Shown here one piece after another: positions 4,731 through 33,625 of a stretch of 33,809 nucleotides of DNA. The translations under genes and the position numbers were made by a program. The notes beneath the pieces are model-generated. The model saw only the letters and a program-made list of their open reading frames with translations. It made no database searches and was not told the DNA's origin. Position 1 is the first letter of the stretch. Each line of letters opens with the position of its first letter. The DNA lies in assembly GCA_945903545.1 (NCBI GenBank), contig CAMDOO010000035.1, positions 1-33,809 of the forward strand, written 5' to 3'. This DNA comes from Opitutus sp. GAS368 (GTDB taxonomy: Bacteria > Verrucomicrobiota > Verrucomicrobiia > Opitutales > Opitutaceae).

Positions 4731-4852
4731 GGTTGGCCGCAAAAAGGCGCAGAAGGCGCAAAACTGAAGATCGGAGGATCAGAGGGTCGGAGACTCGGAG
4801 GATCAGGAATCCGCTGTCCGTTTTTGCGCCACTTGCGCCTTTTTGCGGCAAC
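4731..4852. repeat. Palindromic element, GGCGCAAAA family
   Basis: The left arm (4731-4763) contains CCGCAAAAAGGCGCAGAAGG and continues to GCGCAAAA. The right arm (4820-4852) is its near-complete reverse complement. The spacer is itself made of ~10-nt units related to TCGGAGGATCAG. A lone arm of the same family lies at 6184-6219. Just before it (4671-4724) is an unpaired stretch resembling the CACGCCAAGACGCGAAG family seen at 15635 and 26797. Confidence 0.75.
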
Positions 4853-6183: not shown

Positions 6184-6219
6184 GTTTTTGCGCCTTCTGC
6201 GCCTTTTCGCGGCCAACCA
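6184..6219. repeat. Solo arm of the GGCGCAAAA palindrome family
   Basis: The sequence TTTTTGCGCCTTCTGCGCC and the following GGCCAACCA closely match the arms of the 4731-4852 element, but no inverted partner is seen nearby. It may be a decayed or half element. Confidence 0.5.
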
Positions 6220-8103: not shown

Positions 8104-8110
8104 ATTTTCT

Positions 8111-8259
8111 GCCCGCGAATGAACGCGAATAAGCACGAATTCCCAGAGCGGGCTCCTGACCTGAGTTTCACCCAAACCCTCACTGCCTTGCCGGAATCGG
8201 ATTTGGCCGGAATGGAATGGGCTGCCGTTATTCGCGTCCCTTCGCGTTCATTCGCGGGC
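8111..8259. repeat. Palindromic element, CGCGAATGAACGCGAA family
   Basis: GCCCGCGAATGAACGCGAA (8111-8129) and its exact reverse complement (8241-8259) form 19-bp perfect arms. The left arm continues as TAAGCACGAAT, another degenerate unit. It lies between mreC and mreD and must be transcribed with the operon. Confidence 0.8.
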
Positions 8260-8282
8260 AAAACCCGCCGTTTGTCCTGACC

Positions 8283-15545: not shown

Positions 15546-15634
15546 CGAGGCGCAAGCGCGGGCGGCGGTGCGGGTTGGGTAGGAATCCTACTCGTTCTCT
15601 CACTCATTCTCATTCTCGGATATCCGGATGGGTG

Positions 15635-15735
15635 CACGCCAAGACGCCACGACGCGAAGGTCGATCCCAGGATTGGTTTGGGTTTCCGAACCAACCATCT
15701 CTTCTCCGACCTTGGCGTCTTCGCGTCTTGGCGTG
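15635..15735. repeat. Palindromic element, CACGCCAAGACGCGAAG family, copy 1
   Basis: Two 29-nt arms (15635-15663 and 15707-15735) are reverse complements with three mismatches. The arms read as degenerate units of CACGCCAAGACGC type. The spacer shares GGTCGATCC and TTTCCGAACC with the second copy at 26797-26915, so the whole element, not only the arms, is related. Confidence 0.85.
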
Positions 15736-15753
15736 CCAAACTTCCGGCCAGCC

Positions 15754-16590: not shown

Positions 16591-16616
16591 GGAGAATGAG
16601 CTGATCAGAGGAATTG

Positions 16617-16822
16617 AACCACGGATTACACGCATTGCACGGATTCCAATTCCGGCAAAACGATTTTACAGGAGGCCACGGAGGACATAGGACCCAAGCC
16701 CTCGGTTTCGGACAACCTCCATGTGCTCCGCGACCTCCTGTGAAAGCGGGTTGAAGACGATCACGGCCGGGTCGTCGACCCAGCCCTACCTTATATACGT
16801 GTAATCCGTGAAATCCGTGGTT
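16617..16822. repeat. Palindromic element, CCACGGATT family, enclosing another repeat
   Basis: The left arm at 16617-16645 is a run of exact 9-nt units: CCACGGATT, ACACGCATT, GCACGGATT. The right arm (16798-16822) is the reverse complement of CCACGGATT, TCACGGATT, ACACG. Between the arms lies a complete element of the ACAGGAGG family and a GTAGGG-type fragment. Confidence 0.8.
16654..16745. repeat. Palindromic element, ACAGGAGG family, copy 2 (nested)
   Basis: TTTACAGGAGGCC at the left and CCTCCTGTGAAA at the right are inverted, with CACGGAGGAC and CTCCATGTGCTCCGCG continuing the arms. It matches the element at 1610-1677 and lies wholly inside the CCACGGATT element. Confidence 0.75.
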
Positions 16823-16852: not shown

Positions 16853-17551
16853 TCACCCCAAAATCTCCAGCATCCGCGTGAACAGCTGGTTCACCTTCGC
16901 CTGGTTGTCCTTCACGAGGTCCTTGAACTTGGTGAAGTCGATCTCGGTGCCCGCGAGGCCGTTCGCGTAGTTGTCGATGATCGCGAGGCTGTTGTAGTTG
17001 AGGGCGAGCTCGCCGCAGAGGTCGGCCTCGTGGGCCGCCGTCATGCCGATCACGTCGCCCCAGTGGCGCACGATCGCGATCTCGGCCTTGGTCTCGAAGC
17101 GCGGGCCGCGCATCTGCACGTAGACCTTGCCGCCCTGGATGTTGAACTCGGGGGCGAGGCCCGCGAGCAGCTTGGGGATGAGGTTGTTGGCGATCGCGGG
17201 CGCCCCGCCTTTCAGCTCGGTGTCGTGGAAGGTGGCCGGGCCCTGCTGCAGGCCGACATAATCGCTACACGACACGATCGTACCGGGCGGGAGCTCGGGC
17301 TTTAGCGAGCCGACGGAATTGAGCGAGACTATGTCCTTGAAGCCGAGGTCGGCGAGGGCGCGGATGTTCGCCCGGTAATTGATCGCGTGCGGCGGCAGCG
17401 GGAAGCCATCGCCGTGGCGGTTGATGATGACGTGCTCGCCCCGCGCCCGATAGGCCACCGGCCCGTGGGGGGTCGCCGCGGTGCGCTTCTCCCACGCGGC
17501 AAACAGGTTTGAGTTCACGATGCTGGTGCCACTGATGAACGCGACCTTCAT
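16853..17551 (-). CDS. Nucleoside phosphorylase, MTAP/PNP family
   Basis: A 232-residue phosphorylase of the methylthioadenosine/purine nucleoside phosphorylase family, which cleaves nucleosides with phosphate in purine or methionine salvage. Family features in order are the N-terminal phosphate loop (FISGTSI), INRHGDGFPLPPHAINYRAN, VGSLKPELPPGTIVSCSDYV, QMRGPRFETKAEI and GMTAAHEADLCGELALNY. Where typical MTAPs have MT..PE and a D-Y-D, this protein has MTAAHE and IIDNYANG, so the base and ribose specificity cannot be assigned. The start is ATG at 17551 (MKVAFISG). The protein is shorter than many MTAPs (about 260-290). It stands alone with repeats on both sides. Confidence 0.82.
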   Translation of the reverse strand: MKVAFISGTSIVNSNLFAAWEKRTAATPHGPVAYRARGEHVIINRHGDGFPLPPHAINYRANIRALADLGFKDIVSLNSVGSLKPELPPGTIVSCSDYVGLQQGPATFHDTELKGGAPAIANNLIPKLLAGLAPEFNIQGGKVYVQMRGPRFETKAEIAIVRHWGDVIGMTAAHEADLCGELALNYNSLAIIDNYANGLAGTEIDFTKFKDLVKDNQAKVNQLFTRMLEILG

Positions 17552-17637: not shown

Positions 17638-17746
17638 GGTGACGAGTGACGGGTGACCAGTGACGGCAACGAAGCCGCTCGCCTCGGGCGTCCGATGCTT
17701 CCGGACAATGCCTTGTCTCGTCACTTGTCACCCGTCACTCGTCACC
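17638..17746. repeat. Palindromic element, GTGACGA 7-nt unit family
   Basis: Two 27-nt arms (17638-17664, 17720-17746) are reverse complements with a single mismatch. Each arm is a tandem of 7-nt units: GTGACGA, GTGACGG, GTGACCA, GTGAC. It lies in the gap between divergent genes, upstream of uppS. Confidence 0.85.
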
Positions 17747-20623: not shown

Positions 20624-22039
20624 GTGTCCCTCGACTCCGTCTCCGCCCTGTTTTCCAACGTCTGGTCGATCTTCCTGATCGTCCTGTTTTTCGGCGGCTC
20701 GATCTTTGTCCACGAGCTCGGCCACTTCCTGGCCGCCCGGAAGCGCGGCCTGAAGGTCGCCCGGTTCTCCATCGGCTTCGGCCCCAAGATCTGCGCTTGG
20801 ACCGGCAAGGACGGCGTCGAGTATCGCCTCTCCTGGCTGCCCCTCGGCGGCTACGTCGCCCTGCCCCAGCTCGCCGACATGCGTGAGATCGAGGGTGGCG
20901 ACACTGACACCACCGAGCCGCTCCCGACCATCAGCTACGCCGACAAGTTCATCGTCTTTGTGATGGGCGCCGTCTTCAACGTCCTCTTCGCTTTCGTCCT
21001 CGCCTGTGTCCTCTGGATCATGGGCCAGCCGCTGAGCAACGACGCCGCCACCACCCGGGTCGGCCACGTCAGCGCCACCCTCCCCGGCACCACCCTCCCC
21101 AGCCCGGCAATGGAAGGCGGCATCAAGGTCGGCGACACCGTGCGGGCCATCGACGGCATCTCCGTGAAGGACTGGAGCGGCTTCAAGCAGGCCCTTGTGA
21201 TGAGCTCCGGCCGCACTCCCGACGGCAAGCCCAAGACCGTTTTCACCATCGAGCGCGAGGGCCAGACCTCGGATTTCGTCCTCTACCCGCGCCTCTCTGC
21301 CGACGAATCCCTGCGGATGGTCGGCATCAGCCCCTACTACGACCTGTCCGTCCAGGTGGTCGACCCCAACTCCTTCGGCGCCAAGGCCGGCTTCCAGGTC
21401 GGCGACGAAATCGTCAGCGCCGACGGCACCCCGATCCATAATGCCGCGCTCCTGAGCGAGATCCTCTCCCGCCAGCCGGCGAACCCGCTCGCCGTCACCG
21501 TCAAACGCGGCGGCAACATCGTGGCCCTGACCGTCCCGCCGCGCACCGAGGCCAGCAACGCGATGATCGCCGGCGTGGGCTTCACCGTCGGCTACAAGCT
21601 CATCCACCTCTCCCCGTTCACCCAGATCAGCGAGATGGTCGTCACCACCTTCCGCACCCTCGGCAGCCTGCTCAATCCCAAGTCCGACATCGGCCTCTCC
21701 AAGGTCTCCGGCCCGGTCGGCATCGTGACCATTTTCTACAGCGCCGCCGGCGCGGGCATCGCCGCCGTCCTCTGGTTCACAATCCTGATCAACATCAACC
21801 TCGCGATCTTCAACCTGCTGCCGATTCCCGTGCTCGACGGCGGCCACATCCTCTTTGCCACGATCGCCAAGCTCCGCGGCCGGGCGCTGCCGCAGAATTT
21901 CATCATGTCCACCCAGCAGGTCTTCATCGTGCTGCTTTTCTCCATGATCCTGTACGTGAGTTTCTTCGATGTCCGCCGCCTGTGGGGCGACGTGAAGGCC
22001 AGCCAGGAAGCCGCCGCCCCGGCCAAGCCGGCGAAGTAA
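20624..22039 (+). CDS. rseP: RseP-like site-2 zinc metalloprotease
   Basis: A membrane-embedded protease of the site-2 family, which typically cleaves anti-sigma factors or remnant signal peptides within the membrane. The 471-residue product has HExxH in the first helix (IFVHELGHFLAARKR), GFGPKICAW and LPLGGYVALP after it, two PDZ-like regions (around VGDTVRAIDGISVKDWSGF and VGDEIVSADGTPIHNA) and the third metal ligand motif NLLPIPVLDGGHI in a late helix. Two PDZ regions are usual for RseP. It starts with GTG at 20624, 33 bases after dxr. The gene order dxr-rseP is widespread. A remnant sigma factor is present in the window, but no anti-sigma gene is visible. Confidence 0.94.
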   Translation: MSLDSVSALFSNVWSIFLIVLFFGGSIFVHELGHFLAARKRGLKVARFSIGFGPKICAWTGKDGVEYRLSWLPLGGYVALPQLADMREIEGGDTDTTEPLPTISYADKFIVFVMGAVFNVLFAFVLACVLWIMGQPLSNDAATTRVGHVSATLPGTTLPSPAMEGGIKVGDTVRAIDGISVKDWSGFKQALVMSSGRTPDGKPKTVFTIEREGQTSDFVLYPRLSADESLRMVGISPYYDLSVQVVDPNSFGAKAGFQVGDEIVSADGTPIHNAALLSEILSRQPANPLAVTVKRGGNIVALTVPPRTEASNAMIAGVGFTVGYKLIHLSPFTQISEMVVTTFRTLGSLLNPKSDIGLSKVSGPVGIVTIFYSAAGAGIAAVLWFTILININLAIFNLLPIPVLDGGHILFATIAKLRGRALPQNFIMSTQQVFIVLLFSMILYVSFFDVRRLWGDVKASQEAAAPAKPAK

Positions 22040-22046
22040 CGGCGCC

Positions 22047-22137
22047 GGGTAGGGCGTGGACTCCGTCCGCGCCGGGATAGGATGTAGCGCCGGCAGACCT
22101 CTGCCGGCTTCGATCCCGGGGTGGAGGTCCACCCCGG
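22047..22137. repeat. GTAGGGCG-type repeat cluster between rseP and ispG
   Basis: The first part (22047-22075) closely matches the left arm of the element embedded in the TPR gene at 33167-33193, including GGTAGGGCG and GGACTCCG. Two perfect hairpins follow: GCCGGCAG/CTGCCGGC at 22089-22108 and CCGGGGTGGA/TCCACCCCGG at 22116-22137. No T-tract is present. Confidence 0.75.
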
Positions 22138-26784: not shown

Positions 26785-26796
26785 GTCGGATTTTGG

Positions 26797-26915
26797 CACG
26801 CCAAGACGCGAAGACGCCAAGGTCGATCCAGAGCGGGTTTGTGGCCGGTTCGCCGAGCGCACCCGCCACAAACCCATCTTGTTTCCGAACCTTGGCGTCT
26901 TCGCGTCTTGGCGTG
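26797..26915. repeat. Palindromic element, CACGCCAAGACGCGAAG family, copy 2
   Basis: The arms at 26797-26822 and 26890-26915 are perfect 26-bp reverse complements. An inner perfect hairpin GGGTTTGTGGC/GCCACAAACCC lies at 26835-26875. Spacer words are shared with the copy at 15635-15735. It lies between convergent genes. Confidence 0.9.
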
Positions 26916-26946
26916 AAACCAATCCGAATGGATCGGAATTACCCAA

Positions 26947-31627: not shown

Positions 31628-33625
31628 TCAGAGTCCACCCGTCAGCGCATTGAGCAGCGTGCGGGCAGGGACCGAGGCCGGGTCGAGCCGCAGCGCCGCG
31701 CGGGCGTGGGTGGCCGCGTCGGCATTGCGGCCGAGCCCGCGCAGGACGATGGCCAGGCCGAGATGCGTGCCGGCCGAATCGGGCCGCAGCGCCAGCGAGC
31801 GGGTATAGGCCTCCACCGCCTCGGCCGGGCGGCCCGCGATGGCCAGCGTGGACGCCAGGTTGGCTAGAGAGACCGGATCGTTCGGCTGCAACCGCACCGC
31901 CTCCGCCAGCGCGTCCACCGCCTCGCCGGCCCGGTCCTGCTTCACCAGCAGCAGGCCCAGGCTGTGGCGCACCTCGGCGGCGGCCGGCCGCAGCCGCACC
32001 GCCTTTTCCCAGGCCGGCACCGCCTCGGCGTTGCGCCCGGTCTTCTCCAGCAGGCGCGCGTAGTTCACATGGGCGTCAAAGTCCTCCGGGCGCAGCCGGA
32101 GCAGCTCCGCGATCGCCGCCAGTCCGCCGGCCGTGTCGCCCTGCTGCAGCAGCACCAAGCCGAGGTTGCTCAGCGCGCGCAGGTAATCGGGCCGCAGCCG
32201 CAGTGCCTCCCGGTACTCCGCCGCCGCCCCGGGCAGGTCTCCCTGCTCCATCAGCAGCGCGCCAAGGTTGTTGTGCGCCCGGTCGCTGCCCGGATGATTT
32301 TGGATCGTGTCGCGCCACAGGCCGATCGCGTCCCGGTAAACCACGTTCCGCCGCAGGGTCGCGACGGCGAGGAGCGGGACCGCCACCGCGGCCACGATCA
32401 GCCCGCGCCGGCCGAGCCAGTGCTGGAGTCCCGCCAGGGCCAGCACGACCACGGCCAGCAGCGGCAGGTACATGCGGTGCTCGGCCATCACCTGCGACAG
32501 CACCGGCAGGAAACTCGAACTCGGGGCCAGCACCGCGAAGAAAAGCGCGCCGAGGAAACCGAGCGCCGGCCGGCGCACCAGCGCCCAACCGGTGACGCCG
32601 AGCAGGGCCAGCACGACCAGCCCCTGCCACCAGACCGCACCGAGTCCCGTCACCATCCGCGTCCCGTAGTCGAACACCTGCCCCGTCGGCAGCACGCTCA
32701 GCCGCAGGTAGCGCACCAGCGCACCGGCCTGCGTCAGCAGGTAATGCCACGACGAGGCGTCGCCCGCCACGGCCGTACCGCCGCGACCCGCGCCCGCGAA
32801 CAGCAGCACCGCCAGCACGACCCAAGTCGCAGCCAGCGCTGCGTGCTGGCGCCCGCGTTGCTTCCAGGCGGCGTGAAAAGTCCCGCCGACAAACGTCCGG
32901 TCGTATAACAGCACCAGTAGCGGCGCCGTCACCATGACTTCCTTCGCCGCCATGCCAACCGCGCACGCGGCCACCGCGGTCGCCTGCCAGCGAAGCGGCG
33001 CGGACGATTCCACGGACCGGACAAAGGCGTAAAGCGTGAGCAGGTAGAATAGCGCCACGAGCGATTCCGCCCGCTGCGAGATGTAGGTGACCGATTCCGT
33101 CTGCAGCGGATGCAGGCTCCAGAGCAGGGCCGCCACCAAGGCGAACCAGCCGGCGTCCTGCCCGAACCGGTAGGGCGCGGACTCCGCTCCGCGCCGCGCT
33201 GGGGCAACAGGCTCTGATCCCACCTCAAGTTTGCCCGGCGGTCGCGGAGCGACGCGCCCTACCGGATCCTCGGTTCGGCTCAGCGTCCGCGCCAGCAACC
33301 CGTACACCAGCAGCGCGCTCGCGGCGTGGATCAGGATGTTCAGCAGATGATACCCCCAGACCTCGAGACCGCTCAGGGCGTGGCTCAGCGCGAAGCTGAC
33401 ATTCAGCACCGGCCGGCCCGACACCGTGTCCCCGCCCGCCGGCGGCTGCAGCGCGCTCCAAAGGCTGCCGAGTGTCGGGTTTGTCTGGATCGACCCGAAG
33501 TCGTCGAGCAGGAACGGCACCGAAAAGCTGTTGGCGTAGACCAGCAGCACCGCCGCCGCGATGAGGGCGGGCGGCGCCCAGCCGGGCAGGCCGGAGGTCG
33601 AGGCTGGTTTCGCCGGGGGTTTCAT
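31628..33625 (-). CDS. TMTC-like polytopic membrane protein with C-terminal TPR repeats
   Basis: A 665-residue protein with about 400 residues of membrane helices followed by about seven tetratricopeptide repeats. The membrane part resembles bacterial homologues of TMTC-type (GT-C fold) proteins: FLLDDFGSIQTNPTLGSLW near the start has the paired Asp typical of GT-C glycosyltransferase loops, then SGRPVLNVSFALSHALSGLE, GYHLLNILIHAASALLVYG and SLHPLQTESVTYISQRAESL. TPRs include AHNNLGALLMEQGDLPGAAA and ALSNLGLVLLQQGDTAGGLA. Activity as a sugar transferase is an inference. Residues about 121-153 are encoded by a palindromic repeat of the GTAGGG type, inserted in frame between helices. The start is ATG at 33625. 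Confidence 0.85.
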   Translation of the reverse strand: MKPPAKPASTSGLPGWAPPALIAAAVLLVYANSFSVPFLLDDFGSIQTNPTLGSLWSALQPPAGGDTVSGRPVLNVSFALSHALSGLEVWGYHLLNILIHAASALLVYGLLARTLSRTEDPVGRVAPRPPGKLEVGSEPVAPARRGAESAPYRFGQDAGWFALVAALLWSLHPLQTESVTYISQRAESLVALFYLLTLYAFVRSVESSAPLRWQATAVAACAVGMAAKEVMVTAPLLVLLYDRTFVGGTFHAAWKQRGRQHAALAATWVVLAVLLFAGAGRGGTAVAGDASSWHYLLTQAGALVRYLRLSVLPTGQVFDYGTRMVTGLGAVWWQGLVVLALLGVTGWALVRRPALGFLGALFFAVLAPSSSFLPVLSQVMAEHRMYLPLLAVVVLALAGLQHWLGRRGLIVAAVAVPLLAVATLRRNVVYRDAIGLWRDTIQNHPGSDRAHNNLGALLMEQGDLPGAAAEYREALRLRPDYLRALSNLGLVLLQQGDTAGGLAAIAELLRLRPEDFDAHVNYARLLEKTGRNAEAVPAWEKAVRLRPAAAEVRHSLGLLLVKQDRAGEAVDALAEAVRLQPNDPVSLANLASTLAIAGRPAEAVEAYTRSLALRPDSAGTHLGLAIVLRGLGRNADAATHARAALRLDPASVPARTLLNALTGGL
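33167..33265. repeat. Palindromic repeat inside the TPR gene coding sequence
   Basis: CCGGTAGGGCGCGGACTCCG begins the left arm (33167-33193). The right arm (33243-33265) is the inverted CGCGGAGCGACGCGCCCTAC plus CGG. The left arm matches intergenic sequence at 22047-22075. The 99-nt element keeps the frame open and encodes a Pro/Arg-rich 33-residue linker. Confidence 0.8.

Follow-up and report, generated by a model that had tools for sequence, protein, structure and literature searches.

The window (the whole stretch of DNA analysed, 33,809 nt) is the entire contig C35 of a 3.08-Mb assembly of 122 contigs (G000) from an uncultivated Opitutaceae lineage. An open reading frame of 665 aa on its minus strand contains a 99-nt palindromic element, which codes in frame for residues 121-153; the preliminary description had both its coordinates (33167-33265) and the residues exactly. 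The features discussed here, with the evidence for each, are the following.

33167..33265, no strand: GTAG-REP doublet (two inverted REPs and a spacer), inserted in frame, residues 121-153; fold, genome-wide copies, empty site in G002.
33170..33195, plus strand: REP arm 1, GTAG tag and hairpin (GTAGGGCGCGGACTCCGCTCCGCGCC); sequence, and found as a GTAG hairpin in the hairpin count of the family ORFs.
33237..33262, minus strand: REP arm 2, the other subtype (GTAGGGCGCGTCGCTCCGCGACCGCC); sequence, similar arms elsewhere.
33196..33236, no strand: 41-nt spacer between the hairpins; sequence, common to the G001 orthologue.
31628..33625, minus strand: host gene, 665 aa, with a GT-C-like membrane half and a TPR half (TMTC-like); translation, Pfam TPR, models, Foldseek.
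22049..22073, plus strand: solo copy of the same REP, outside predicted genes and just 3' of a stop codon; match to arm 1, upstream gene end near 22039.
16765..16789, minus strand: one arm from a second family of GTAG REPs, in a gap between predicted genes; exact pattern match, predicted genes ending at 16608 and beginning at 16856.

The element starts with CCGGTAGGGCGCG and ends with the reverse complement of CCGGTAGGGCGCG. It is made of two inverted GTAG-tagged hairpins facing each other, with the GTAG adjoining a short hairpin on both arms and the 41-nt spacer in between. Its predicted fold as a single DNA strand, with 7 nt of flank per side included, reaches -40.6 kcal/mol (z = -5.45), and none of 200 shuffles folds as well. 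In an ungapped comparison the 33-nt arms are identical to each other at 21 of 33 positions, so the palindrome first described is a GTAG-type hairpin pair but an imperfect one, whose arms are two subtypes of one repeat. The left arm had been said to match 22047-22075 over nearly 30 bases; this solo copy, which starts ∼9 nt past the stop codon of the upstream gene, agrees with arm 1 in 26 of 27 paired bases plus a 1-nt gap (28 columns).

Searching G000 with the 99-nt element found 43 places at E ≤ 1e-3, with scores computed for 40 of the 103 initial candidates. Matches to the pattern GGTAGGGCGNNGACTCCG in this genome number 54 when exact and 90 at up to one mismatch, compared with 0 for the reversed pattern; a shorter 12-base pattern was rejected, as with one mismatch it barely discriminates (328 matches versus 243 in the control). 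Exact matches to GGTAGGGCGNNGACTCCG are found in nine of 95 genomes and eight of 81 genera: G000 (54), G001 (38), G019 (36), G055 (36), G030 (11), G041 (5), G005 (4), G036 (2) and G038 (2); the reversed control has one match each in G003 and G060. There is no exact match in G002, an assembly that is only 75% complete. A second GTAG family, GTAGGGCTGRSYCGMYGRSYCRGCC, has 153 matches in G000 at up to two mismatches (control 0). By our own pairing rule, inverted pairs account for 39 of 65 first-family elements in G000 and 28 of 33 in G001, and a model of the arm has 216 matches on the examined DNA of these two genomes (with overlap among loci) and none when that DNA is reversed. With many copies, inverted pairs and a location mainly outside genes, in addition to its GTAG hairpins, the repeat belongs with the GTAG REPs that form BIME-REPIN doublets.

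From about residue 430 to its C-terminus the host protein consists of TPR repeats (Pfam and model). The first loop has an acidic pair, D41 and D42, that is invariant across 46 sequences. The AlphaFold model of the full protein has a mean pLDDT of 89.2; across residues 121-150, however, the block values are 49, 53 and 46 (85 before, 73 and then 98 after), so the REP-encoded segment is predicted to be disordered in an otherwise confident model, in keeping with the earlier suggestion that the repeat is tolerated in a loop. Foldseek with the full protein had TPR proteins in its first 50 rows, and the membrane half, modelled alone (mean pLDDT 86.3), was hence searched alone against the PDB: the titles at ranks 1-16 are ArnT, oligosaccharyltransferase, Pmt, GPI transamidase, Emb and OST translocon. 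Only rank 1 is at E ≤ 0.001 and the rmsd is high, so we take these matches as a resemblance of fold to GT-C enzymes. The modelled fold, the acidic pair and the TPR half together suggest a TMTC-like GT-C/TPR membrane protein (TMTC is a name that we assume for it). In GT-C enzymes the loop with the acidic pair is extracytoplasmic. By analogy, the loop with D41 and D42 would be extracytoplasmic and the next loop, residues 119-153, which bears the insert, would be cytoplasmic, on the side opposite to the acidic pair. TMTC-like/TPR genes have expanded strongly, in part as tandem copies, with 29, 37 and 33 stretches matching the host protein in G000, G001 and G002, respectively.

Both the element and its spacer are also present in the G001 orthologue (81% identical), and the G002 orthologue (78-79% identical) has an empty site, where 36 residues are absent: from one anchor motif to the other, the loop is 88 aa in the window protein versus 52 aa in the G002 protein. 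Among 88 family loops between these two motifs, 70 are under 62 aa, and the loop was not found conserved in homologues without the repeat DNA. Judged from these alignments, the window segment is an inserted REP doublet, for which gain in an ancestor shared by two species of this Opitutaceae genus is the simplest account; a target-site duplication was not established at the insertion. An in-frame insertion into a membrane protein gene, as initially proposed, thus holds, as does the proposal that the repeat family is or was mobile, for which the insertion itself is the support.

Further in-frame coding copies exist, several of them in paralogues and homologues of the host gene. For example, in the corresponding loop of a G000 paralogue (C98:7718-7790) the doublet is a different one and is read in another frame (SGRAGTPLP versus PVGRVAPRP in the window protein), and the most similar aligned genes of G001 and G002 are short at that loop. 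In another example, a tandem paralogue in G001 (C341; L057, L194) has a doublet in the same loop with both tags GTCG, not GTAG, inside a perfect 30-bp inverted repeat; its G002 counterpart has no doublet. The arms of this tandem copy look as if one had been corrected against the other after mutation. L080, from another Verrucomicrobiota assembly, has a GTAG doublet in the same loop and a second doublet near residue 207; L029, from another genus of the family, and L081 each have one GTAG hairpin in the same loop. These inserts begin at codons a few positions apart, so they do not share one fixed target. In more distant family members, second-family doublets lie near residue 207 and immediately ahead of the TPRs (two in G000 C29, two in G002 C47 and one in G001 C73), and second-family arms lie before the TPRs in G000 C98:4373. 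A first-family doublet is found in G001 C350 where the G000 and G002 counterparts have second-family ones. The three genes with these doublets in the same loop before the TPRs (G001 C350, G000 C29 and G002 C47; L315-L317) are closely similar, yet the doublets belong to different families, which looks like replacement of one by another.

GTAG hairpins were counted in 114 family ORFs: 18 were found, versus 4, 6, 8, 2 and 3 in codon shuffles. Other tags in the same ORFs gave 11 (GATG), 13 (GGAT), 14 (GTCG), 8 (GTGG) and 1 (CTAG); as the GTAG count is not far above these, we put weight on the GTAGGGC start (13 out of 18 hairpins) and on position rather than on the count. An inverted-repeat score of p < 0.03 is reached by three of 18 long loops versus one of 70 short loops, with the G001 orthologue and L080 just outside (0.033). 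Long loops such as those of L031, L032, L038, L047 and L055 have no inverted-repeat signal and probably were not made by REPs.

A census of in-frame copies was made with a codon model seeded on the host gene, which was right for 99.4% of 172 windows (the same windows as those used in training) and replaced a model trained on the longest ORFs, right for 65% of windows. The final in-frame rule was applied to G000 only, and copies in G001 were chosen by eye. Of 65 first-family elements in the G000 DNA examined, two are in frame within genes, both of the TMTC-like family, 60 fail the rule (which does not prove each of them intergenic) and three are at contig edges. Of 104 second-family elements, four are in frame, five are at edges and 95 are other; of the four, two are in the TMTC-like family, one splits a helicase HA2 domain and one is in an AcrB-type transporter. 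The last two are doublets, C90:414 (L391) and C36:7897 (L361), respectively. The other C29 insertion is a further in-frame second-family copy, seen outside the automated census. In all, five out of seven in-frame intragenic REPs found in G000 are in the TMTC-like family, about a dozen genes whose matched spans make up 0.72% of the assembly. Binomial P values are 9e-10 for these copies and 8e-8 by genes (four out of six), calculated for independent events and an assumed coding share of 85%; they are only indicative, as the paralogue events may not be independent and the census is uneven (it covers part of the 153 second-family arms, its script can miss copies and the TMTC-like family was examined hardest). 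Among 33 first-family elements in G001, two in-frame copies are clear by eye (C341 and C350); the tandem copy was detected by homology only. One more is probable in a glycosylase-like gene (C248), a fragment matching no named Pfam family, for which no clean empty site was found, the loop being variable in relatives. G019 has one in-frame copy outside the TMTC-like family, according to a first classification that missed one arm subtype.

TnpAREP/RAYT enzymes bind and cut single-stranded GTAG hairpins, according to the parts of PMC8266576 used here. A Y1/HUH transposase of this kind (RAYT), acting on single-stranded hairpins, would have copied the doublet into the host gene. None of the three Y1_Tnp genes in G000 is directly flanked by the first-family repeat, and two of them are flanked by other GTAG repeats; with no cognate transposase found, we only infer mobility by a RAYT. 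A RAYT in G041 has a repeat similar to the first-family one (GTAGGGCGGGG) on each side. G019 has 36 exact repeat matches and no Y1_Tnp hit, and is thus a genome with the REP family and no detected RAYT. Missing REPtrons are noted in the sections of PMC3733652 used here, and a cognate RAYT is not required of every genome.

The doublet may have survived in the gene for three reasons: its net length left the frame intact, it is read in a frame that avoids the TAG of the GTAG tag, and the resulting Arg/Pro/Gly-rich unstructured peptide would fall in a cytoplasmic loop under little constraint on length. This account does not require that the protein benefits. In 67 doublets from G000 and G001, the spans are distributed over the three phases as 24, 24 and 19, and two or three of the six frames are open in 46 of the 67. 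Peptides from the 174 open frames have a mean net charge of +3.73 and 92% are positive, although the charge of the window insert is only about +2. Positively charged peptides suit cytoplasmic loops (the positive-inside rule). Our reading of the recurrence is that a disordered peptide with positive charge is selectively tolerated where it falls in a cytoplasmic loop. Overall, we consider it very likely that the feature is a REP doublet (BIME/REPIN-like inverted GTAG hairpins) inserted in frame into the gene of a TMTC-like putative glycosyltransferase, probably copied by a RAYT and tolerated in the loop.

Three other histories of the insert can be weighed against this one. The window does contain many weak repeats from GC-rich coding DNA, but the probability that the element is merely a chance palindrome of such DNA is negligible: the G002 empty site and the genome-wide copies with no control matches exclude it, and the fold (z = -5.45) is against it as well. 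It is rather improbable that the REP was ancestral to the genus and that G002 lost it by an exact in-frame deletion, which would make the empty site a secondary state. The comparison covers just three species of the genus, one of them the 75% complete G002; most loops of the wider family are short, however, G002 has zero exact repeat matches, and the segment would be an inserted REP under either order. Gene conversion between family members, instead of separate insertions, could explain why an arm of the G001 tandem paralogue is nearly identical to its neighbour's and part of the flank (ATCC) is common to both, and that copy, which shares its arm subtype with the neighbour, could be a conversion product. 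As an account of the paralogue inserts in general, conversion seems quite improbable: the C98 paralogue differs in arm type, spacer and reading frame, the L080, L029, C29 and C47 genes have other REP sequences, and the insertion codons differ by a few positions.

A further alternative to an insert that is simply tolerated is one that is kept for use, whether the useful part is the charged extension of the loop or an intragenic hairpin of DNA or RNA. Between G000 and G001 (L027), the outer two thirds of the insert are identical at 63 of 66 positions, compared with 81% for the gene outside the insert (binomial P = 7.5e-4), and the insert has four synonymous changes versus 11.8 expected (P = 0.009). 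Plain neutral tolerance does not predict arms that are better conserved than the gene, and a useful insert would also fit the recurrence within one gene family. However, the central third (28 of 33 identical) is near the rate of the gene, arms versus centre alone is not significant (P = 0.11), and the dN/dS of the insert (0.43, on 4 + 4 changes) falls within the bootstrap range obtained for the remaining gene (median 0.21, 97.5% at 0.63). In addition, G002 manages with no insert, and homogenisation between copies would likewise keep the arms alike. We therefore regard a useful insert as unlikely; the excess identity of the arms may reflect constraint on them, homogenisation among copies or chance. 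A broader idea, which we offer tentatively and consider unlikely, is that several GTAG-REP families use the cytoplasmic loops of this expanded TMTC-like GT-C family of Opitutaceae as permanent landing sites. Repeated in-frame inserts would extend the loops with positively charged, disordered peptide and so make paralogues more diverse, and the arms would afterwards be kept as functioning REPs within the gene.

Opitutus terrae, of the same family as the source genome, is the species in which reported intragenic GTAG REPs are most numerous (Di Nocera et al. 2013). In-frame intragenic GTAG REPs are therefore already known, and the present case is a further example in an uncultivated Opitutaceae. 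In the portions of that paper (PMC3733652) used here, more than half of the intragenic inserts are dimers or groups coding for 20-30 aa, and flexible linkers or loops are proposed as neutral insertion sites. The window element resembles these inserts in its GTAG hairpins, the opposite orientation of the pair, its location within an ORF and the loop as a tolerant site; it differs in that it codes for 33 residues within a net gain of 36, and an empty-site orthologue is available. Those portions stress replication and repair genes, whereas here several inserts are in the same loops of one paralogous membrane family. Recurrence of this kind was not found in the literature searched, although it may already be recorded in the supplementary gene list of PMC3733652, which was outside the scope of the search. 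With BIME/REPIN elements and their RAYT (TnpAREP), as described in part of PMC8266576, the element shares two inverse REPs, each led by GTAG, and a linker; it differs in that no cognate RAYT is beside the repeat in G000 and in that the role described there is mostly intergenic. The Rickettsia RPE, with which the preliminary description compared the element, are likewise palindromic repeats in frame within genes and translated (reviewed in PMC10969869). The comparison holds to that extent only: in the parts of that review used here, RPE are ∼150 bp long, have a conserved peptide and lie in ORFs in almost half of cases, whereas ours is a GTAG REP doublet of 99 nt, in frame in two of 65 elements and with at least two frames used. 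Membership in RPE, compared by description only, was thus rejected.

At this locus an empty site gives evidence that a REP inserted in frame in an uncultivated Opitutaceae lineage, and the homologues amount to a natural series in which a single protein family received different insertions. What turns a mobile DNA hairpin into protein sequence (frame, charge, membrane side and palindrome constraint) becomes a testable question.

The window also contains repeats of other kinds. A palindromic repeat without the GTAG tag (CGCCAAGACGCGAAGACGCCAAGG type) is found at 15629-15740 and 26787-26926, each with inverted arms. Other inverted repeats of 28-40 nt, with unrelated sequences, are at 4731-4849 and 6186-6218, at 8107-8263 and at 17638-17746, and are perhaps other repeat families.
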